Below are positions 4,101 through 18,658 of a DNA stretch of 64,000 bases, one piece after another (position 1 is the first letter of the stretch; every line of letters begins with the position of its first letter). This DNA is from an uncultured Clostridia bacterium. GTDB taxonomy: Bacteria; Bacillota; Clostridia; Oscillospirales; CAG-382. The notes below the pieces were generated by a model. That model saw only the letters and a program-made list of their open reading frames with translations, made no database searches and was not told where the DNA came from. The translations under genes and the position numbers were made by a program. Location: assembly GCA_947630765.1 (NCBI GenBank), contig CANRIX010000002.1:39387-103386 (forward strand). The letters are read 5' to 3'.

Positions 4101-5434
4101 TGGAAGTTAAAGCTGAACATTCCGCAGGAAAGCTCGTCGATATATTGGAGGGGCAGACGAAGCAGCTCACGGAGTACGCGGACAACCTGAAATCGGCTGG
4201 AACCTACGGACTGGATGAGGGGCTGCTCGATATGTTGAGCGACGGCAGCACCGACAGCATGGCGAATATCTCCACCATAATTGCGGAAATTGAGAGACTG
4301 GGCGGCACGACTGACGCGGCTCGTCAGTATGTGGATGAATTGAACGGGGCGTTTGCAGATAGTCAGGCGGCGCAGGATTATTTCACACAGGCGCAGACGA
4401 CAGCCGACGACCTTATGGCATCGTTGCAGTCGCAGAATGATTTCATCACGCAGTATGTGGATAATATCCAGCGGGCAAATGAAATCGGGCTGAATGAGAA
4501 TTTGCTTGCATCCCTTAGTGACGGCAGCGAGGAAAGCGCGGCACAGCTTCAAGCGATTATCGACAAAGTGGACGAGCTGGGCGGCACGTCGCAGGCGGCA
4601 AAGGATTACGTTGCTGAGATGAACGCGGCGTTCGAGGATGTGGAGAGCGCAAAAGACACGTTCGCAAATACCGTCGCAGAGATGGAAACGGATTTCGATG
4701 AAAGGATGACCGACATCGAAAAACGTATGGAAGATGCAATCGAAAATATGACGATGGAGGATGATGCGAAAGCAGCAGCACAGGCGACGGTAGCGGCGTA
4801 TGCAGCGGGAATAAGGAGCGGTATCAGGGATGCCGAGAGTGCAGCACAGGCTGTCGCAAATGCGGCGGCAAATGCACTCTCGACTGCGCATAGCGTAGGC
4901 TCTACCACTCGTTCCGCACTTCCTGTCGAGGCAGACGCAAGTGGCACGACGGACGCAGCCGATGTATTCATTGCTGGCGAGAATGGTCCTGAACTTATTA
5001 TCGGAGCTGGCGGCAGCACTGTGTTCCCGCATGAAGAAACGGAACGGATTATTGATGCCGTTTCTGGCGATGCCATGTATAAAGACGCAGGAGCCATGAC
5101 GGTTATGTTCTCCCCGCTTCTTGGTATGTGGGGGAATGATGGCAGCGTTACGACGAGCGAGGCTGTCACGAGTGACGGCAGCGAGGACAACAGCGGCATA
5201 TTCTTCCCCGTTCCGCAGCCTGATGGTGGAGGCGGCGACAGAGATGGAGGCGACGGCGATAATACGAGAAAGGTCCTGCTCGAAATTGCAGGAAAGGGCA
5301 ATATCGAATTGAGGGGCGGTAAAGTGGACGATGAGACGATGCTGCAATTCCTGTATGAGTATTTGAAGCCCGTTCTTTCCGAGATACTGACACAAGAAAT
5401 CTACGAGGAGGGCGACGGCAGCTATGAATACTAA
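1118..5434 (+). CDS. Phage tail tape measure protein
   Basis: ~1438-aa coiled-coil Ala/Gln-rich protein with central hydrophobic segment; GTG start at 1118 after AGGGAGGTG. Confidence 0.85.
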
Positions 5435-6077
5435 ATATCAGATGTGGATTACGTACAACGCGGAGGCTGAAAAGCTCCGCATCCCCGTGCTGCCCGAAAA
5501 GATTACGGTCAGTATTGGGAGCAACAACAGCAGCGTTGATTTGGTAGGCTTGGGCGAGGTTGTTATTAAGCAGGCTCGCCCCGCCTTTCAATTCTCGTTT
5601 GACAGCTTTTTCCCCAGCACGACGTTCCCAGGCGTGACAGTTGGATTGTCCGACCCGAAGCAGTGCGTGAATATGCTGAAAAAATGGCAGGAGGGCGACA
5701 AGCCCGTTCACTTGATTTGCACGGATGTCGGGATTGATGTCTATTGCACGATTGAGAGCTTCACGTATTACGAGCAGGGCGGCGACGTGGGGACGATGTA
5801 TTACAGTTTGAGCCTGAAAGAATATCGGGAAGTGACAGTAAAAAAGGTCAAAATCGAGGAAAAGAAAGCGACCGTCCCGCAGACCGAAACGAGGGTAGAC
5901 AATACGGTTACGCCGAAAACCTATACCGTCCAAAAAGGCGATTGCCTGTGGAATATCGCAAGGAAGTTTTACGGGAACGGGTCCAAGTATACGCTCATCT
6001 ATAATGCGAACAGGGATAAAATCAAGAACGCCAACCTGATATATGCGGGGCAAGTATTGACAATTCCTGATGCGTAG
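5424..6077 (+). CDS. LysM-domain baseplate/tail protein (XkdP-like)
   Basis: C-terminal Lys[50 protein letters not shown]. Confidence 0.8.
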
Positions 6078-6088
6078 GAGGTGAGAAC

Positions 6089-7324
6089 ATGGGCAAAGGA
6101 ATAAGCCTGCTCGTGATGAAGTCGGGAGCATCCAGCGGCACGGATATTTCAGGGCTGGTGGAGACGATAACGTGGAGCGGGCGGCGAGGTAGTCCGACGA
6201 GGACACTTCAAGTCTCACTGATTGATGATGACGGATATAAACACGCGCGGAGCGGCGTGGATATTGAAAGCGGTTATCAGTGCATATTCTCGTATGATGG
6301 CGCGGAATTGTTTCGGGGGATATTCCTACGGCAGAGCCAAAGCCACACAAAGACGATGGAGTTCAAGGCATACGACCTCGGAATATATCTGTCGAATAAT
6401 AAGGACACTTTCGTATATGAGAATAAGACGGCGACGGATGTATTCAAAGACGTGTGCAGCCGTTTTGGTATTCCGGTAGGAGGCGCGGCGAGTACAAGCT
6501 ATACGATACCTGACCTGACGAAGAAAAAAACGACTGGATGGGATGCCATAGCGGATGCCCTTAGTTTGGATTATGAGAACACGGGAACAAAGCATTATGT
6601 GTTCTCGGATAAAGGGCAACTCTATTTGAAAAAGAGGCTCGAAAACGTCCTACAATGGGTGTTGGATGTTGATACGAACATCACGAGCTATAAGTATTCC
6701 AAGAGCATAGAGAACCTGAAAACGCGGATAAAATTGCTGTCGAAAGAGGGTACTGTGCTGGCGCAGGAGCAGGACACAGCCCTCGAAAAACTATACGGCA
6801 TTTTTCAGGATGTGGACACGCCCGACGAGAGCCTTTCCAACGCGCAGATAAAATCCCTTGCAAAGAGCTTGCTCTCGGAAAAGAAAACGCCAGAGCGGAA
6901 CCTTATCCTGAATAATGTGCTGGGCGTGACGGATGTGATTTCTGGGGTAGGGGTATTCATAAAAATCCCGCACCTCGGATTGAACAAGACGTTTTATGTG
7001 GACAGTGACAGCCACACGTTCAAAGGGAATTTGCACACGATGTCGTTGGAGCTTAACTTGATTTCGGAGGCAAGCCCGCCCGAAGAACCGAAGCAGGAAG
7101 ATGAGGCGAAAAAGGATTACAAGGTCGGCGACGTGGTGCAATTCCACGGAGGAAAGCATTACGTTGCGAGTACGGCGAGCAGCCCAGCAAGCACAAATCT
7201 CGGCGCAGGACCAGCGAAGATTACCCTGACAAACAAGGGGTCCGCTCATCCGTGGCATCTCGTCACGGAGGACTGGGGGAAAACACACGTCTGGGGCTGG
7301 GTCGATGATGGGTCATTCAGTTAG
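6089..7324 (+). CDS. Phage tail hub / late control D-like protein (XkdQ-like)
   Basis: Size, gene order and sequence style; C-terminal SH3-like extension. Confidence 0.7.
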   Translation: MGKGISLLVMKSGASSGTDISGLVETITWSGRRGSPTRTLQVSLIDDDGYKHARSGVDIESGYQCIFSYDGAELFRGIFLRQSQSHTKTMEFKAYDLGIYLSNNKDTFVYENKTATDVFKDVCSRFGIPVGGAASTSYTIPDLTKKKTTGWDAIADALSLDYENTGTKHYVFSDKGQLYLKKRLENVLQWVLDVDTNITSYKYSKSIENLKTRIKLLSKEGTVLAQEQDTALEKLYGIFQDVDTPDESLSNAQIKSLAKSLLSEKKTPERNLILNNVLGVTDVISGVGVFIKIPHLGLNKTFYVDSDSHTFKGNLHTMSLELNLISEASPPEEPKQEDEAKKDYKVGDVVQFHGGKHYVASTASSPASTNLGAGPAKITLTNKGSAHPWHLVTEDWGKTHVWGWVDDGSFS

Positions 7325-8163: not shown

Positions 8164-9282
8164 GTGTTTGAGGCTTATACGTTTGAGGCATTACTGGACG
8201 ATGTGCTGCGGAACGCCCCAGAGGGGATAGACACACGGCAGGGCAGCATTTTCTATGATGCTGTGTCGGGAATTATCCTACAAATCGCAAGGATGTATAC
8301 GGACCTTGAAAGAGTGTTCCAGCTTGTTTTCGTAACATCGGCAGAGGGCGAATATCTGGATATGAAAGCAAGCGAATACGGGATGAAGCGGCTGAATGCG
8401 ACATCGGCAAAATACAGGCTCGTGTATGAGGGAGCAACGCCGTCAATCGGAGCAAGGTTTTTCCACAATGACACGGGACTGTATTTCAGGGTAGGAAGTG
8501 ACGACGGCGTATTATTCCTTGAATCGGAGCAGGTTGGCACGGTGGGCAACAATATTCCTGTTGGAGCGTTGGCTGTGCCAGTGAATACCATTCAGGGGCT
8601 TTTATCGTCCACGTTTGGCGAAGTGTATGAGTACGGGTCTGACGAGGAATCGGATGCAGACCTCCGAACGAGAGTGCAGGAAAAGATTGCAGGACCAGCC
8701 GAGAACGGCAACAAGCAGCATTACAAGACGTGGTGTGAAAGCGTTGACGGTGTAGGTCTTGCGAGAATAACACCGCTCTGGAACGGCCCGAACACGGTGA
8801 AAGCGGTGCTGATAAGTCCGCTCGGATTGCCGTGCAGCGAGAACATCGTCGAGAACGTCCAAAACTATGTTGACCCGTCCACGAAAGGGATTACGGTCGA
8901 TATTAAGGGCAAGACATACCCTGTCGGCGACGGGCTGGGAGAGGGCGTTGCAAATCTTGGCGCCCATTTCACAGCCACGGCAGCGGACAGCGTAAATGTT
9001 GCCGTGAGGTTTAAGGCCGTGATAGCAGAGGGACGGTCGGAAGATGATGTACGACAGGAAGTCACGGAGGCGTTGACGGAGTATTTCAAACAGCTTGTTA
9101 TGGAAACGGCAAGCGCATCGGATATTGTCGTGCGTATCACGGCAGTCGGCGCGATGATTTCAGGAGCGGAGAGCGTCGTCGATTATAGCAACCTTACGCT
9201 GAATGGAGGAACGTCGAATATATACCCAGGCGAGGACGGCGTTCCCGTTGTGTCGGAGGTGACCGTCGATGTCGATATTTAA
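8164..9282 (+). CDS. Baseplate J family protein (XkdT-like)
   Basis: GIDTRQGSIFYDAVSG, SDEESDADLRTRVQEKIAGPAENGNKQHYKTW. Confidence 0.85.
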   Translation: MFEAYTFEALLDDVLRNAPEGIDTRQGSIFYDAVSGIILQIARMYTDLERVFQLVFVTSAEGEYLDMKASEYGMKRLNATSAKYRLVYEGATPSIGARFFHNDTGLYFRVGSDDGVLFLESEQVGTVGNNIPVGALAVPVNTIQGLLSSTFGEVYEYGSDEESDADLRTRVQEKIAGPAENGNKQHYKTWCESVDGVGLARITPLWNGPNTVKAVLISPLGLPCSENIVENVQNYVDPSTKGITVDIKGKTYPVGDGLGEGVANLGAHFTATAADSVNVAVRFKAVIAEGRSEDDVRQEVTEALTEYFKQLVMETASASDIVVRITAVGAMISGAESVVDYSNLTLNGGTSNIYPGEDGVPVVSEVTVDVDI

Positions 9283-10387
9283 TCCCTACTGGAAGTGTAA
9301 CTACGACGAGCTGATAACGTATTATCCCCGCTATTACAGGGATGTGCTGGAAATGGATGCAATTCTTCACGCGGAGGGTCGCCTTGCGGATGGATTACAG
9401 AACGGCATTGACCTAATCCTGATGAATAACTTCATTGACGGAGCGGACGAGGACACAATCGGAAAGTTTGAGCAGTTTCTTGGGCTGTCGTTGCTTAAAA
9501 GGCGTTCTGTGGAGGAACGACGGCGGCTTGTAAAGAGCTTTTTCGCTGGTATGGGAAAAGTATCAGCCACAAGAATTGCCGAGACTATACGGGCGTACAC
9601 GGGCGCAGAAACGACGTGTGATTTCTACCCGTTTGACGAGGCAAGAAACAACCGCCTCGATATAATGTTCCAGCGTGGGAATGAAGAAACGATATACGTC
9701 AGCGATATATATACCTTGCTGGAAAGGATGCTGCCCGCGCACATCGAGTGGCGGGCGATGATTGTGTATCGTTTCGGCATCGGGGTAGGATGTCGCAGAG
9801 AGCATTACAAATATCTGTATGAGTTCTGCGGAACGAAGCCGTATTCTGTCCTTATCGCGGACGTGAATGGAGTTACGACGGTCGTTGAAACACACATCAC
9901 TGGCGTAAAAGCTGATTATAAGCACAGCGCACAGGATGGAGTTATGCAGCGTTCGGGGCAGCATCCGAATACTGCGCTCCTTGCGGGAGTGAGAACAGCC
10001 GATACAGTGGTGGAGGTTGGCATCACGAACGACGTGGAGACGTACAAATTCAGCGGCTACGGCGAGGCTGGAAAGCACCCGAACACGACAACCTTTGCCG
10101 AGGTGATAGGCGCTGACGTGGGCATCGGTGCAGAGAACGAAAATGCGCTCATAATGTATAAGCGCACGGGTGTTGAGCCTGACACCGCCACAATCGCCCA
10201 CGAAAGCGAAATCGCGGTCGGGGTAGGAGAAAATTCTGAACACACAGTTATGGACTACAAGAGCAGCGGCGTAATCCCTGACACCGCCACCCTTGCCCAT
10301 AATGATGAGATTAACGCCGCAGTCGAGGTGAAGTCCTCCGATTACGGCGTTAATTATATTCCGTGTGGTACAACTTTCACAAGATAG
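9269..10387 (+). CDS. YmfQ/DUF2313-like tail protein with C-terminal repeats
   Basis: N-terminal tail-protein signature followed by five ~33-aa repeats. Confidence 0.65.
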   Translation: MSIFNPYWKCNYDELITYYPRYYRDVLEMDAILHAEGRLADGLQNGIDLILMNNFIDGADEDTIGKFEQFLGLSLLKRRSVEERRRLVKSFFAGMGKVSATRIAETIRAYTGAETTCDFYPFDEARNNRLDIMFQRGNEETIYVSDIYTLLERMLPAHIEWRAMIVYRFGIGVGCRREHYKYLYEFCGTKPYSVLIADVNGVTTVVETHITGVKADYKHSAQDGVMQRSGQHPNTALLAGVRTADTVVEVGITNDVETYKFSGYGEAGKHPNTTTFAEVIGADVGIGAENENALIMYKRTGVEPDTATIAHESEIAVGVGENSEHTVMDYKSSGVIPDTATLAHNDEINAAVEVKSSDYGVNYIPCGTTFTR

Positions 10388-10399
10388 GAGGTAACGGCG

Positions 10400-10705
10400 A
10401 TGGCATTTTGGACGGAAACTTTTCTGAATAAGATGCGGGAGGACTGGCTGCGGCGTATCGTAAAAATCCAGTATTATGCTGGCGGCACGTGGTATGATGC
10501 TCAAATCACGAGCAAGACCATCGAGGGCGACACGTTAAAGATTTTGAGCCAGACCACCGACAGCAGGGCGTTGACCGTCACGAGCGTAAGGCTTATTGAC
10601 ATGGGCGGCGACGTGGCGGGGCAGATTTCAGAAAACATCACGAAACTGGCAACGCAGGGCGTAATTACCCTTTGGGAATTTCCGCTCTATGAGATTGCAA
10701 CTTAA
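10400..10705 (+). CDS. Small phage tail-region protein
   Basis: ORF with RBS, in tail-fibre operon. Confidence 0.6.
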   Translation: MAFWTETFLNKMREDWLRRIVKIQYYAGGTWYDAQITSKTIEGDTLKILSQTTDSRALTVTSVRLIDMGGDVAGQISENITKLATQGVITLWEFPLYEIAT

Positions 10706-10730
10706 AAACGAAAAGAGGTGAGAAACAGCT

Positions 10731-11255
10731 ATGTACAAAAATTTGCTTTGGCTTGACCATGCCGTAACTCCTGACCGCACCTTTAAGATGACGAACAACT
10801 CTGACGGTACGGTGACGCTGACACCCGCAGGGAGGGTCATTCAGCAGGGTACGAATATGAGTGCCGCAAATTTCAACAACATCGAGATGGGCGTCTCGGA
10901 TGTTGACCTTGCGGGGCATCTGCTCGTGCTTATTGTCCGCGACCTGTGCAGGAGAACGGGCGTGACCGAGGACGACTTTGTGAGCGTTCTGAATGAGGTG
11001 ACGGCAGAAGAAAAGAGCATCACGCTGAAAAATACGGCGAAATACCCGTTTAACAACAGCGTACAGAGTGTGAGCCTGACGAAGAACAGAGCCACGAAGA
11101 ATTACACGGTCGAAGCGGAAGTCGTTTCCAAGAACGGAAACGTCGGGGAAATCGTCATCACTGACAAGGCCCTGAACGGTTTCAAGGTGGAACACACTGG
11201 CAGCGCGACCGAGGTAAAAATCAACCTGAAAATTAGAGGAGGTATAATCGCATGA
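10731..11255 (+). CDS. Phage tail/collar structural protein
   Basis: ORF with AGAGGTG RBS, tail-fibre operon. Confidence 0.6.
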   Translation: MYKNLLWLDHAVTPDRTFKMTNNSDGTVTLTPAGRVIQQGTNMSAANFNNIEMGVSDVDLAGHLLVLIVRDLCRRTGVTEDDFVSVLNEVTAEEKSITLKNTAKYPFNNSVQSVSLTKNRATKNYTVEAEVVSKNGNVGEIVITDKALNGFKVEHTGSATEVKINLKIRGGIIA

Positions 11256-11602
11256 TTATCATCGAAAAGAACGAGGGGACGAAAATCCCCTACGAAGTGG
11301 ACGGCACAAAGGTCTGCTTCAATGACGACCTGACAATCAACCTTGCCAAGCGGCAGGAGGATTGGCCCGTGCATATCGACGTGTGCAGCGACAAGGACGG
11401 TGCGCTCGTTATCGGCGCGGCAAGTGGAAATTACTACGTCGCCCAGATTGACGTACCCGCGAGGGAGTACGTCGAAGTCGAGGAAGATGTCGAGCCTGTC
11501 GAGGAAGATGGGCAGACAAAGAGCGTTAAGCTCGAACCGAAGCCGCTCGATATGGATGAGGTGACGCTCACCCTTTGGGCGCTCGAAAATTATTCTGAAT
11601 GA
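11252..11602 (+). CDS. Small phage tail-region protein
   Basis: ORF overlapping previous stop, acidic. Confidence 0.55.
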   Translation: MIIIEKNEGTKIPYEVDGTKVCFNDDLTINLAKRQEDWPVHIDVCSDKDGALVIGAASGNYYVAQIDVPAREYVEVEEDVEPVEEDGQTKSVKLEPKPLDMDEVTLTLWALENYSE

Positions 11603-11617: not shown

Positions 11618-12694
11618 ATGAGTAACTTTGACCTTGCGAGCCTTGCGCTCAAATCAGCGTTTCCGAAGAACACAATCCTGACCGACGATAAGGGACTGCC
11701 GTCCGTGATGGTGTACGTACCGAAGTTCAAGATGTCGGAAGTTATCGAGGGAGGCACGGACAGCACCCATCCCGCGTTCATCGTTGACGGTGTGGAGCGC
11801 AGCGGCATCTATATTTCCAAGTATCAGAACAAGGCATATAACAGCCGCGCGTATTCCCTGCCCGGGGAAGACCCGACCGCGAGTATCAACGCTGACACCG
11901 CAAGACAGTATTGCGAGAGTAAGGGCGCGGGCTGGCACCTGATGACGGCGATGGAATGGGGCGCCATCGCATTGTGGTGCAAGAAGAACGGCTGGCTGCC
12001 CTACGGCAACAACAATTACGGAAAGGACACCCGCGAAAAAACCTACGAGGCTGTTCCTACGTATGAGTACGACGACAGCGGTCACCATATCGGTAGAGTT
12101 GCCACTGGTACTGGACCTGTCACATGGTCGCATAACAAGCAGCTCGATGGTATCTATGACCTGAACGGCAACGTCTGGGAATGGACGGACGGGATGAGGC
12201 TCGTATACGGCGAGTTGCAGATTTTGGAGAATAACAATGCTGCAAACGCCTCGAACCTCAAAACCGCCGCGTCTGCCGCGTGGAAAGCCATCGACGGTAA
12301 GACTGGCGCCCTTATTACCCCGAACGGGAGCGGCACTACCACGAACAGCTTGAAGCTGGACTATGTTTCGAGCAATTGGAAGTGGATTACGGGCGAAATC
12401 ACCAGCAAGGATGACAGCAGCCGCTCGTGCCTGTTCTTCAATGTGTCTGCCGACGAGGACGTTGTTGATAAGGCAAAGGAAATCCTTCACGCGCTGGCTA
12501 TGCTGCCTGATGAGACGGAGGACAAGTACGAGGGCGACTATTTCTGGGCGAATAACGCGCAGGCAGAGCGTTTCCCGTGTCGTGGCGGCGGCTGGCACCG
12601 CGGCACGGGCGCGGGCGTGTTCGCTGCGGGCTTGAACGATGCGCGGTCGAATGTGTCCCCGGGCGTCGGTTTCCGCTCCGCTTTTTACGAATAA
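11618..12694 (+). CDS. DGR target protein: SUMF/C-type-lectin-fold tail adhesin with C-terminal variable region
   Basis: IYDLNGNVWEWTDGMR and WHLMTAMEWGAIALWCKKNG motifs; C-terminus RFPCRGGGWHRGTGAGVFAAGLNDARSNVSPGVGFRSAFYE overlaps the VR. Confidence 0.93.
   Translation: MSNFDLASLALKSAFPKNTILTDDKGLPSVMVYVPKFKMSEVIEGGTDSTHPAFIVDGVERSGIYISKYQNKAYNSRAYSLPGEDPTASINADTARQYCESKGAGWHLMTAMEWGAIALWCKKNGWLPYGNNNYGKDTREKTYEAVPTYEYDDSGHHIGRVATGTGPVTWSHNKQLDGIYDLNGNVWEWTDGMRLVYGELQILENNNAANASNLKTAASAAWKAIDGKTGALITPNGSGTTTNSLKLDYVSSNWKWITGEITSKDDSSRSCLFFNVSADEDVVDKAKEILHALAMLPDETEDKYEGDYFWANNAQAERFPCRGGGWHRGTGAGVFAAGLNDARSNVSPGVGFRSAFYE
12568..12682 (+). repeat. DGR variable repeat (VR)
   Basis: 115-bp gapless match to TR 13300-13414 with 21 mismatches, all at TR adenines. 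Confidence 0.97.
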
Positions 12695-12722
12695 CTGATA
12701 ACTGAACACTGGCACACTGATA

Positions 12723-12744
12723 AGGGGCTGCGATAGCAGCCCCT
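12723..12744 (+). promoter_or_regulatory. DGR target-recognition hairpin downstream of VR
   Basis: AGGGGCTGC-GATA-GCAGCCCCT, perfect 9-bp stem, GRNA-type tetraloop, 40 bp after VR, no T tract. Confidence 0.8.
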
Positions 12745-12773
12745 ATCTCTGCCAGTAGAAAGGAGCGCACAAG

Positions 12774-13262
12774 ATGGAGGATGCGCACAAAGAAGTAGCG
12801 GAACAGCCATCGTTTGACGATGGAGTTCCCGCGTTACAGTACAAGCAGTTTTTCCTCAAAACGAAAATCGAGGACATGATGAAGTACGGCAAGAAAGCCG
12901 TTGCGACGTTTCCTCGGCGCGAGAGGCAGACGGCTGATGAAATCCGAAGGACGATGCTCGATATGTACCGCCTGTCAATCCAAATTGAACGGAAGTATTT
13001 CAAGAAATCGACGTTGCAGGATTTGGACGTAAATCTTGATGTGCTGCGGCATTTGGTGAGGCTCGCAAACGATAAGGATTACTACGACGAGATGGTGCCG
13101 AAAAGGGATGCGAGCGGCAGAGTGATAAAGGACGGGAACGGAAAGACTGTCAAAGTCAGGATGATGCCGCCCCTGCCCGATAAGCGGTACAAGGTTTGGA
13201 GCGGGATGCTGGACGAAATCGGAAAAATGATTGGCGGTTATATCAAGTCCGTAAAGGGCTGA
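12774..13262 (+). CDS. avd: DGR accessory variability determinant (Avd-like four-helix bundle protein)
   Basis: 162-aa helical basic protein between VR and TR; size and position typical of avd. Confidence 0.85.
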   Translation: MEDAHKEVAEQPSFDDGVPALQYKQFFLKTKIEDMMKYGKKAVATFPRRERQTADEIRRTMLDMYRLSIQIERKYFKKSTLQDLDVNLDVLRHLVRLANDKDYYDEMVPKRDASGRVIKDGNGKTVKVRMMPPLPDKRYKVWSGMLDEIGKMIGGYIKSVKG

Positions 13263-13299
13263 TAAAGCCGCCTTTTGTTTTGTGGGAATAAGCCAAACA

Positions 13300-13414
13300 G
13301 CGTTTCCCGTATCGTGGCGGCAACTGGAACAACGGCACGAACGCAGGCGTGTTCAATACGAACTTGAACAATGCGCGGTCGAATGTGAACACGAACATCG
13401 GTTTCCGCTCCGCT
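13300..13414 (+). repeat. DGR template repeat (TR)
   Basis: Adenine-rich AAC/AAT codon copy of VR; 28 A, 21 substituted in VR. Confidence 0.97.
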
Positions 13415-13608
13415 CTGCTGTTATGTCGGAAAGAAATGGGCGAAGCCACCCGCCGAAAGGTGGAGGCTTTACGCACGGAACATAACACCAAAGGGGCTTA
13501 TTTCCATTCCTGTGTTGAACATCACGGGAAAAAGATTGTATTGCTGCGAAAACGCCACGTGGAGGGCGAGGCGGAAACGTCACGCGCAGCGGGCAGGAGG
13601 TGTAGTCA
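13415..13608 (+). ncRNA. Putative 3' spacer of the DGR template RNA
   Basis: Intergenic TR-RT spacer with potential stems (e.g. CCACC-cgccgaaa-GGTGG); analogy to Bordetella phage TR RNA. Confidence 0.5.
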
Positions 13609-14772
13609 ATGGAGAATGGGCGCGAGTATAGCGTCATCACGGATGTATTTGACCAGATATGCGATTTTGATGAGCTGATGAAAGCGCATCGGAATGCACG
13701 GAAAGGCAAGCGTTATCGGGGAGATGTCCTCCGTTTCACGAATGATTTGGAGGGCAACATCATCAATTTGAGCAATCATCTTAGATGGGAGAGCTACGAG
13801 GTAGGACCGTATCACCCGTTTTATGTTCACGAGCCTAAGACGAGACTTGTGATGTCCTTGCAATATCCCGACCGCGTTGTACAGTGGAGCATATACGATA
13901 AACTGTACCCGTTCTATGACAAAATGATGATTGAAGACAGTTTCGCTTGCCGAAGAAATAAGGGCAGTCATAAGGCTGCCGACAGGCTGCAATATTGGCT
14001 TAGACAGGTGGACCGAAAGCCGCAGAAATGGTACTACTTGAAGTTGGATATTTCAAAATACTTTTACCGAGTAGACCACGCCGTTTTGGAGGAAATTCTT
14101 TCAAGACGGATAAAGGACGAGCGGCTGATGAGATTGCTCCACAAGATTATCAACTGCGAGGACACGCGGTTCGGACTTCCCGCAGGAATGTCGCCCGATG
14201 ATTGCCCCGAAGATTTATGGCTGTGGGACGTTGGGATGCCCATCGGGAATTTAACTTCGCAATTATTTGCGAACATCTACCTTAACGAGCTGGACCAATT
14301 TTGCAAGCACAAACTCCACACCCATTTTTACGTCCGATATATGGACGATATTATAATATTATCCCCCGATAAGGGTCAGCTTGCCGAGTGGAAACAGGAA
14401 ATTGCAGTCTTTTTGGAGGACAACTTACGGTTGAGCCTGAATAAAAAGACGGCGATACGTCCGATTTCCCTCGGCATTGATTTTGTCGGCTATAAGATAT
14501 GGGCGACACATCGGAAGTTGAAAAAGCAGACGGCGCGGAGGATGATACGCCACGTTGCTACGATGTGTGACCTTATGGCGGCTGGTGAGATGAGCGAAGA
14601 AGAGTTCAGACGCGTTGCCGCGTCCTATGGAGGCGTTATGCAGCACTGTAACAGCTACGGGATGCGGACGAAGATGAACAGCTTTTACATCGAGTACAGA
14701 CGCAAAATTTCCGAGGCAAAAGGCTGGGAGAATGAAGAACAAACGGACAACAAAAGAGGTGATGCAGTTTGA
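13609..14772 (+). CDS. DGR reverse transcriptase
   Basis: MPIGNLTSQLFANIYLNELDQFCKH (DGR-type (I/V/L)GxxxSQ motif), YVRYMDDIIILSPDK active site, FVGYKI. Confidence 0.97.
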   Translation: MENGREYSVITDVFDQICDFDELMKAHRNARKGKRYRGDVLRFTNDLEGNIINLSNHLRWESYEVGPYHPFYVHEPKTRLVMSLQYPDRVVQWSIYDKLYPFYDKMMIEDSFACRRNKGSHKAADRLQYWLRQVDRKPQKWYYLKLDISKYFYRVDHAVLEEILSRRIKDERLMRLLHKIINCEDTRFGLPAGMSPDDCPEDLWLWDVGMPIGNLTSQLFANIYLNELDQFCKHKLHTHFYVRYMDDIIILSPDKGQLAEWKQEIAVFLEDNLRLSLNKKTAIRPISLGIDFVGYKIWATHRKLKKQTARRMIRHVATMCDLMAAGEMSEEEFRRVAASYGGVMQHCNSYGMRTKMNSFYIEYRRKISEAKGWENEEQTDNKRGDAV

Positions 14773-15204: not shown

Positions 15205-15561
15205 GTGAAGAAGCAGAGCAAGAAAAAGCCCGCCCACGCCGAGAAAAAGGGCATCGGCGTGATGGACATCATCTTGATTATCGTCGGCGTTTCGCTGCTG
15301 TCGTTCACGGTGTATATGATACACCTTTTTCAAATTTACGGCGCTGTTCCTGATACGCTCGTAACGTGCGTGTTCGCCTGTCTCGGAGGCGAATGCGGCA
15401 TTATGGGATGGATTAAGACGAACAAAGACCGTAACCGCGACAGGGAATGGCAGCTTGATGATGAGAAGCGAGCGAAGCGTGAAGCGCGGCGATATATGGA
15501 GGAAAGCCAAAACACAGGACAGACAGGAGGTTTAGAAGATGCTGAACGGGACAACGAATGA
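15205..15561 (+). CDS. Phage small membrane protein (holin-region)
   Basis: Two hydrophobic segments, adjacent to endolysin. Confidence 0.5.
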
Positions 15562-17206
15562 ACAGAAAATCTGGAACTACCTGAAAGCGGCTGGGCTGAA
15601 TGATTTCGGCACGGCTGGATTGATGGGAAATCTGTACAAGGAAAGCGGATTAAAGCCGAATAATCTGCAAAACAGCTACGAGCAGAAACTTGGGTACACA
15701 GACGAGAGCTACACGGCGGCGGTAGATAATTCATCGTACACAAATTTCGCCTCGGATGCGGCGGGCTACGGGCTGGCACAGTGGACTTTCCACACGCGCA
15801 AGGCTGGGCTGTTGAGCTACGCAAAAAGCAAGGGAAAGAGCATCGGCGACCTTGAAATGCAGCTCGAATACCTGATGAAAGAGCTGAAAGAGAGCTACGC
15901 AGGGGTCCTTTCGGTGCTGAAAACCGCAACGAGTGTTCAGGAGGCTTCGGATGCGGTATTGATGCAGTTTGAACGTCCTGCGAACGCTGCCGCCAAAAAG
16001 AGTGAGCGAGCCGACTGCGGTCAGGCTTACTTAAATAAATTTGCAGAAATGGAGGAACGGAAAATGAGCTTTACGAACAGCCCGCTGGTATCTTATACCA
16101 AGATTTCGCCCAACAGGACGAAGAACAGAAATCACGCCATCGACACGATTACCATTCACTGCGTTGTCGGTCAATGCTCGGTGCAGACGCTCGGCGAAGT
16201 GTTCGCGCCGACAACGAGGGAGGCATCGTCGAATTACGGTGTCGGGTATGATGGCAAAATCGGGATGTACTGCGAGGAAAAGGACAGGTCGTGGTGCAGC
16301 TCGAATGCGGCTAACGACCATAGAGCCGTGACGATTGAGGTGGCAAGCGATACGACCGAACCGTATGCGGTGAATGATAAGGCATACGCCGCGATGCTCG
16401 ACCTCGTGACAGACATCTGTAAGAGGAACGGCATCAAGAAGCTCGTCTGGTCGAACAATAAGGATGACCGCGTAAATCATAGGAACGGCTGCAACATGAC
16501 CGTCCACCGTGATTATGCGAATAAGTCCTGCCCTGGTACTTACCTGTATGAGAGGCACGGAGCGATTGCTGCCGAAGTCAATCGCAGACTTGGTGCGAGC
16601 GGAGATGCACCCGCAGAGCCGAAGCCTACACAGCCCGCGACGGAGCTTAAGTTCGGCGCAGGTGACATCGTGGCGTTCGCTGGTGGAACACATTACACGA
16701 GCGCGGATGCCGCCACAGGCTCGACTGCAAAGGCTGGTACGGCTAAAATCACAGCGGTAAAAGTTGGCGGCAAGCACCCGTACCACTGCCGCGCGGTGAA
16801 TGATGCTGGGGCGTTTGTCAGCGGTGTATACGGCTGGGTGGATGCCGCAACTGTTTCGGCTGTCAAGGCCGAGGCAAGTGGCGATACTGTGTACGTTGTG
16901 AAGAAAGGCGACACCCTATCTGGGATTGCTGCCAAGTATGGAACGACGTATCAGGCGCTTGCGGAGTATAACGGCATCACCAATCCGAACATCATCAGCG
17001 TCGGGCAAAAAATCAAAATCCCGAAGAAAGGCGCGACCGCAGCACCCACGGTGAGAAAGCACACGGTTGTCCGTGGCGATACGCTCTGGGCGTTGGCTGT
17101 GAAATATCTCGGTAACGGCAGCCGTTATCCAGAGATTATGAAAGCCAGCGGCATCACGTCCACGACGCTGACGGCAGGACAAGTCCTCACTATTCCCGAA
17201 AAGTAG
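15539..17206 (+). CDS. Modular endolysin: tail-lysozyme-like domain + amidase_2-like domain + SH3-like + two LysM domains
   Basis: [103 protein letters not shown]. Confidence 0.9.
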
Positions 17207-18259: not shown

Positions 18260-18658
18260 ATGAAACAGTCATACCCGATTGTTATGAGCAAAGGAACATC
18301 ACATATCGTCGTGTACGTCCCTGATTTCGATATAAATACTCAGGGCGAGGATTATACGGACGCCATTGAAATGGCGAGGGATGCAATCGGCGTGGTGGGC
18401 ATCGAGCTGGAAGATAGAAAAGAACAGCTCCCTTGCCCAACTGCCATGAGTGAGGTGCGGAAAGAAAACGACGACGATATTATTTCACTCGTCGATGTGG
18501 ACTTCACCGAGTACCGCCGCCAAAACGATATTAGAGCGGTGCGGAGAAACGTCACCCTCCCGTCGTGGCTGGATGCCGCAGCAGCGAAAAGCGGGGTAAA
18601 TGTATCAGCCATCCTGCAAAGGGCTTTGAAGCAGGAGCTTCATCTTACTGACCGATAA
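18260..18658 (+). CDS. hicB: HicB-type antitoxin
   Basis: YPIVMSKGTSHIVVYVPDFDINTQGEDYTDAIEMARDAIGV.. plus C-terminal RHH-like segment. Confidence 0.9.
   Translation: MKQSYPIVMSKGTSHIVVYVPDFDINTQGEDYTDAIEMARDAIGVVGIELEDRKEQLPCPTAMSEVRKENDDDIISLVDVDFTEYRRQNDIRAVRRNVTLPSWLDAAAAKSGVNVSAILQRALKQELHLTDR

Follow-up and report, generated by a model that had tools for sequence, protein, structure and literature searches.

Bordetella phage BPP-1 (NC_005357), a short-tailed phage, carries a diversity-generating retroelement (DGR) that is laid out as mtd-VR-avd-TR-brt and serves a single target. In this system the target side is marked, as a rule, by a GC-rich hairpin with a GRNA loop (PMC3240598), and the folded spacer recruits RT-Avd and primes the cDNA (PMC12875486). 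The DGR of Faecalibacterium phage FP_Lagaffe (NC_047911; Lagaffe_CP in PMC11792537) was described in one account (PMC5883640) as having a single VR whose reads vary, and in another (PMC11792537) with a second VR and population variation at adenines of both VRs. A second, non-structural DGR target is likewise documented in Quimbyvirus (PMC8008677), and other two-target gut phages have been reported (PMC10743442). Since two-target phage DGRs, that of Lagaffe included, have been published, the kind of system treated here is already known. In an open-access search, we did not find stated in these accounts the existence of two old target clades over 15 phages, a recipient-only GRNA hairpin at both VRs or a spacer RNA model.

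The window, by which we mean the whole stretch of 64,000 nucleotides analysed here, corresponds to G000:C2:39387-103386 from an uncultured Clostridia bacterium with a genome of 2.1 Mb in 39 contigs. On the same contig, 5' of the window, the prophage contains genes for a large serine recombinase, a repressor-like protein, recombination and replication, as well as a terminase-like gene and those for capsid and tail sheath, the last of which bears out the contractile tail proposed in an earlier, sequence-only reading of the window. The first window gene encodes the tape measure and is followed by baseplate J and Mu gp48-like tail genes (8164-10387, + strand; PF04865 and PF10076), the DGR and a tail lysozyme/amidase/LysM endolysin (15539-17206, +). 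The DGR therefore does sit among baseplate J and tail genes, as had been read from the letters, with lysis genes flanking it as well. Three small genes in the baseplate-target interval (10400-11602, +; phrog_7177, 9010 and 8734) keep their order in Lagaffe and Dulem virus 37. Near window position 25 kb the G+C content climbs from about 50% to 60% and ABC transporter and sensor kinase genes start on the opposite strand, from which we place the prophage between about 4.2 kb of C2 and about 25 kb of the window. A search of the prophage ends for repeats yielded just 11-13 nt matches, at chance level, and defined no attachment sites. Judged by its genes, the host element is a contractile-tailed temperate phage. 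Its right part also holds a HicB-like antitoxin gene (window 18260-18658), and between its early and packaging genes (L039:50-1129 and 4606-7268) inspection by eye picked out a SAM synthetase-like sequence, a pair of similar ORFs (about 285 aa each) and an ORF that resembles radical-SAM proteins.

Within the window, the DGR is complete on the + strand in the order target-VR-hairpin-avd-TR-RT (11618-14772), which matches the order in BPP-1. Its core is a pair of direct repeats of 116 nt (12567-12682 and 13299-13414, offset 732, 82% identical), compared with 134 nt in BPP-1. The downstream copy contains 29 A among its 116 nt, and all 21 mismatches between the copies are at these adenines (hypergeometric p = 6.7e-17), with none in the opposite sense; hence the downstream copy is the template repeat (TR, 13299-13414, +) and the upstream copy is VR1 (12567-12682, +). 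VR1 forms the 3' end of a 358-aa structural target gene (11618-12694, +), which ends 12 nt past it, and closes with an invariant, IMH-like stretch of 17 nt (12666-12682, +) identical in TR and in the VR2 described below. The target matches FGE-sulfatase PF03781 (E 3.4e-8) and phrog_2889 (E 1e-129), in line with the lectin/SUMF-fold gene with a 3' VR that had been proposed. It is followed by a GC-rich hairpin or cruciform, the presumed target-site mark (12723-12744, +; 9-bp stem, GATA loop of the GRNA type; AGGGGCTGC-GATA-GCAGCCCCT), and by avd (12774-13262, +; 162 aa), with matches to NF033474 (83.1 bits, cut-off 80), PF22296 (bAvd, E 5.5e-20) and phrog_3206. Because of an insertion after residue 103 (YDEMVPKRDASGRVIKDGNGKTVKVRMM region), Avd matches the family model in two separate parts. 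Downstream of TR, a structured spacer RNA occupies the TR-RT interval (13402-13600, +) and precedes the DGR reverse transcriptase (RT; 13609-14772, +; 387 aa; PF00078, RVT_1; phrog_1423, E 2e-132), in which both GNLTSQ and YMDD are found. The hairpin, the avd-like gene and the RT with its motifs had all been recognised from the sequence, and the HMM searches of RT and Avd suggested at that time returned the families just given. The locus thus combines A-restriction between TR and VR, an SQ RT, Avd, a lectin-fold target with a 3' VR, a GRNA-loop hairpin 3' of the VR without a copy at TR, and a structured TR-RT spacer RNA, all of which are features of BPP-1-type DGRs.

The claim that all DGR parts lie within about 3.2 kb on one strand stands for the window but not for the system, because TR has a second VR, which had been missed since it lies outside the window. 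VR2 (G000:C2:18352-18463) lies in the prophage's early module, 33.6 kb 5' of the DGR, and makes up the 3'-terminal part of a 368-aa ORF (L038:17375-18481; phrog_2889). This early target is flanked by a DUF7694 gene on one side and by zinc-ribbon and MazF-like genes on the other, and SbcCD-like, replication-initiator and DnaC-like genes lie upstream of it; an ORF nearby (L038:18960-19679) is MazF-like at its N-terminus and RNA-binding-like at its C-terminus. Over TR positions 5-116, 17/17 differences between VR2 and TR fall at TR adenines (p ~4e-13), and three non-A differences at TR positions 2-4 probably reflect the 5' limit of homology. In many relatives (L208-L220), VR2 has the same three or four non-A differences at its 5' edge, which are absent from VR1. 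The patterns of adenine change differ between VR1 and VR2, and VR2 is accompanied by a GRNA hairpin of its own (GGGGCTGT-GGTA-GCAGCCCC). One TR thus stands with two VRs in paralogous lectin-fold genes, one on the tail side and one outside it. The Quimbyvirus DGR similarly has two lectin-fold targets, one tail-side and the other in a non-structural gene island, but belongs to a Bacteroidetes phage, has a frameshifted RT and carries its second target on the opposite strand beside defence-like genes (PMC8008677).

Used as the sole query against viral contigs, the RT retrieved one locus, and an alignment query retrieved 159 related loci. Of the 159, 133 contained a TR/VR pair of 60 nt or more in which all mismatches are at TR adenines. 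This number counts layouts, as the scan tolerates A only and its A-restriction is partly by construction; the pooled 359/359 A-site differences are a product of the same A-tolerant scan and are not counted as evidence. Two annotated phages, Dulem virus 37 (PP511443) and FP_Lagaffe, have the same layout and a second target in the non-structural region whose differences to its own TR are A-biased. Dulem virus 37 shares both targets (structural 72% and early 70% identical), RT and Avd with the window phage and differs in a record without DGR annotation for the second target and in another N-terminal extension of the early target. FP_Lagaffe has the same baseplate-to-endolysin order, a lectin-fold target, Avd, TR, RT and a second VR in an early-module gene, and both of its VRs vary in relatives (PMC11792537). 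It differs in its RT (44% identical) and structural target (60%), in having an IS30-type integrase where the window prophage has a serine recombinase, and in an early target without N-terminal extension but with a C-terminal one; moreover, no GRNA hairpin was found when looked for 3' of its VR2. The earlier suggestion that this instance may be undescribed is consequently only weakly true, given that FP_Lagaffe with the same layout has been published (PMC5883640, PMC11792537).

Early-type second targets were detected in about half of the 30 records searched. In 12 of 13 further pairs, VR2 matched the TR of its own record, and here, with no A-tolerance applied, 152 differences fell at A vs. 23 at other bases, the latter mainly on the 5' edge (TR positions 2-6); the pair L167/L212 was left out of the test, its TR and target coming from two different DGRs. 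Within 5 kb of the early targets are genes for replication initiation, DNA methyltransferase, MazF-like proteins, SbcC and Holliday-junction resolvase and, in a few records, endolysin. When VR1 and TR of 109 related loci, together with 15 VR2, were surveyed for the hairpin, the GRNA type was seen 3' of VR1 in 72/109 and 3' of VR2 in 12/15, and 3' of TR in 0/109.

The AlphaFold2 model of the structural target (pLDDT 94), a check proposed in the sequence-only reading, agrees with the predicted fold: the best match is TaqVP (5vf4, TM 0.90), followed by FGE-like enzymes, Mtd and TvpA, and the profile search likewise points to 5vf4 (E 4e-96). Mtd of BPP-1 is a more distant fold relative than TaqVP (Foldseek E ~4e-4). 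TaqVP, which comes from another lineage (Thermus aquaticus, 32% identity), resembles both target types in fold and sequence. For the early target of a related phage (L072:15690-16844), the predicted model (pLDDT 80; TaqVP TM 0.75) begins with 65 residues that form a low-confidence beta-beta-alpha unit, and its core was guided by structural targets, since these make up most of the alignment. Most structural targets have a common N-terminus like NFDxxxLA...DDxGxPSxMV; the N-terminal extensions of early targets are diverse, or absent, and gave no useful match in a Pfam search. In a tree of 19 structural and 15 early targets, computed without the VR, the two types lie on opposite sides of one branch with support of 100/100, which indicates that the target pair is old and would fit a single old duplication with both copies retained under one TR. 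From its position and fold, the structural target is likely the receptor-binding tail tip, and the early target may be a binding protein acting inside the cell or on another part of the particle.

Across 15 relatives, the TR-RT spacer keeps nine helices with 54 pairs, 27 of which have changed at both positions; 95% of cells in these helices pair, compared with 40-48% in slid controls, and 0/500 shuffles reach this level. The covariance model R1 matches just 5' of the RT in nearly all DGR loci searched, has no match in BPP-1 at E 0.01, and the spacer RNA hits no family in an Rfam search. The RNA at window 13402-13600 is a candidate new Rfam entry and, by analogy with the BPP-1 spacer (PMC12875486), may play an equivalent role. 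At L164:8821-9970 (RAZJ01000017.1, bacterium 1XD42-1) and L159:8887-9984 (CAJTGE010000003.1), and also at L259:1-840 (IMG/VR, contig start), four tandem units of TR and spacer RNA precede one RT, the unit periods being 292 and 278 nt. The tandem TRs have constant blocks in common and differ in variable segments and lengths (e.g. RGGNWNNGASAGVF, RGGNYGNQASAGVF and RGGSYNGNVASAGVF), and the sole VR found per tandem locus fits unit 2 best in both loci. They look like DGRs with alternative templates; DGRs with more than one TR have been mentioned (PMC6642488), and our literature search for DGRs with several or tandemly arranged template repeats turned up no account of tandem templates. The genome itself has a second, separate DGR (G000:C1:237477-239595; L004, L040) with a putative Avd and TR and an RT that is 49% identical to the window RT and closer to Lagaffe; contig C1 stops inside the apparent VR and the target is missing.

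An RT originating from a retron, a group II intron or a defence system could have come to lie beside a repeat by chance, and the window RT does have weak general matches to group II, retron and DRT models. These scores, however, are well under the family cut-offs wherever a cut-off exists (TIGR04416, group II: 116 bits, cut-off 300), and the best PDB entry in the profile search was 8ub7 with 224 bits, group II RTs coming next with 109 bits. Although its entry title is just 'Reverse transcriptase', we take 8ub7 to be the BPP-1 DGR RT. In a tree of the window RT, BPP-1 brt, other SQ RTs and 8 QG RTs (six of the 8 scanned, all six exceeding the group II cut-off), the SQ set with BPP-1 brt and the window RT was split from the QG RTs with support of 100/100, so the clustering with group II RTs that would have spoken against the original call did not appear. 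Profile ranking and tree together rule out a retron, group II or defence RT identity, and with the SQ motif, Avd and the TR/VR repeats present as well, a chance neighbour of this kind is improbable to the point of being negligible. It is likewise conceivable that the DGR has decayed, its parts being intact by chance and its VR differences a relic of past diversification: only a single genome is at hand, VR1 is changed at 21/29 adenines so that the unmutated state is not visible, and Lagaffe_CP cultures were reported without read variation (PMC11792537). Yet the reading frames of Avd, target and RT are all open, the RT motifs and Avd are intact, and VR1 and VR2 (over TR 5-116) differ from TR just at adenines, the remaining sites showing no drift.

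Decay is also at odds with natural variation among other phages of the same clade, close relatives of the window's, whose mutual differences are almost confined to VR adenines. In near-identical phages from different samples, VR1 differs at 10-17 sites, nearly all of them TR adenines, whereas the upstream differences of the closest pairs are 0/910, 0/743, 1/910, 5/910 and 6/910; example pairs with 0/910 and 0/743 upstream show 16 VR differences, every one at a TR adenine. In three relatives, the early VR2 behaves in the same way, with 13-16/26 A sites vs. 0-2/90 others differing (p 1.5e-8 to 3e-13). Polymorphism that ignores TR adenines, which had been named as grounds for abandoning the DGR call, is thus not what these phages display. 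The window copy is thus probably active, and we regard a decayed element as unlikely. The fold and phrog_2889 that the two targets have in common might still suggest that VR2 is passive, an old VR retained by an early gene that arose recently by duplication of the structural target and is no real target itself. Several observations already disfavour this reading and make it very improbable: outside the VR the targets share only about 40% identity and fall into separate old clades, VR2 is free of non-adenine change relative to the current TR over TR 5-116 and has its own hairpin, and among close relatives VR2 varies at TR adenines.

Cumulatively, we are nearly certain that the locus is a BPP-1-type DGR of a contractile-tailed temperate phage in which one TR serves both VR1 and VR2. 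In the mechanism that we propose, the avd-TR-spacer RNA would fold through the spacer helices (13402-13600) and be bound by RT and Avd, upon which the RT would make cDNA from TR with errors at adenines. This cDNA would replace VR1 in the lectin-fold gene that follows the baseplate genes, with the common 17-nt 3' end and the GRNA hairpin as guides, the hairpin marking recipients and not TR; the same cDNA would supply VR2 in the paralogous lectin-fold gene of the early module. A more speculative idea, which we put forward as possible but doubtful, is that the paired targets represent an old division of labour, with a diversified tail-tip protein for receptors and an early binding protein of the replication module that never enters the virion and is directed inside the cell against proteins of the host or of rival phages, the single template keeping both in step.

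The element itself is one more case of a known class, and the comparative part is the more useful one. The spacer covariance model provides a repeat-independent route to DGR templates and exposed the loci with four tandem templates. In at least 15 Bacillota phages, one template is associated with two anciently separate targets, one of which lies outside the block of virion genes, and this target pair makes the question of what else phages diversify besides receptor-binding proteins directly testable.
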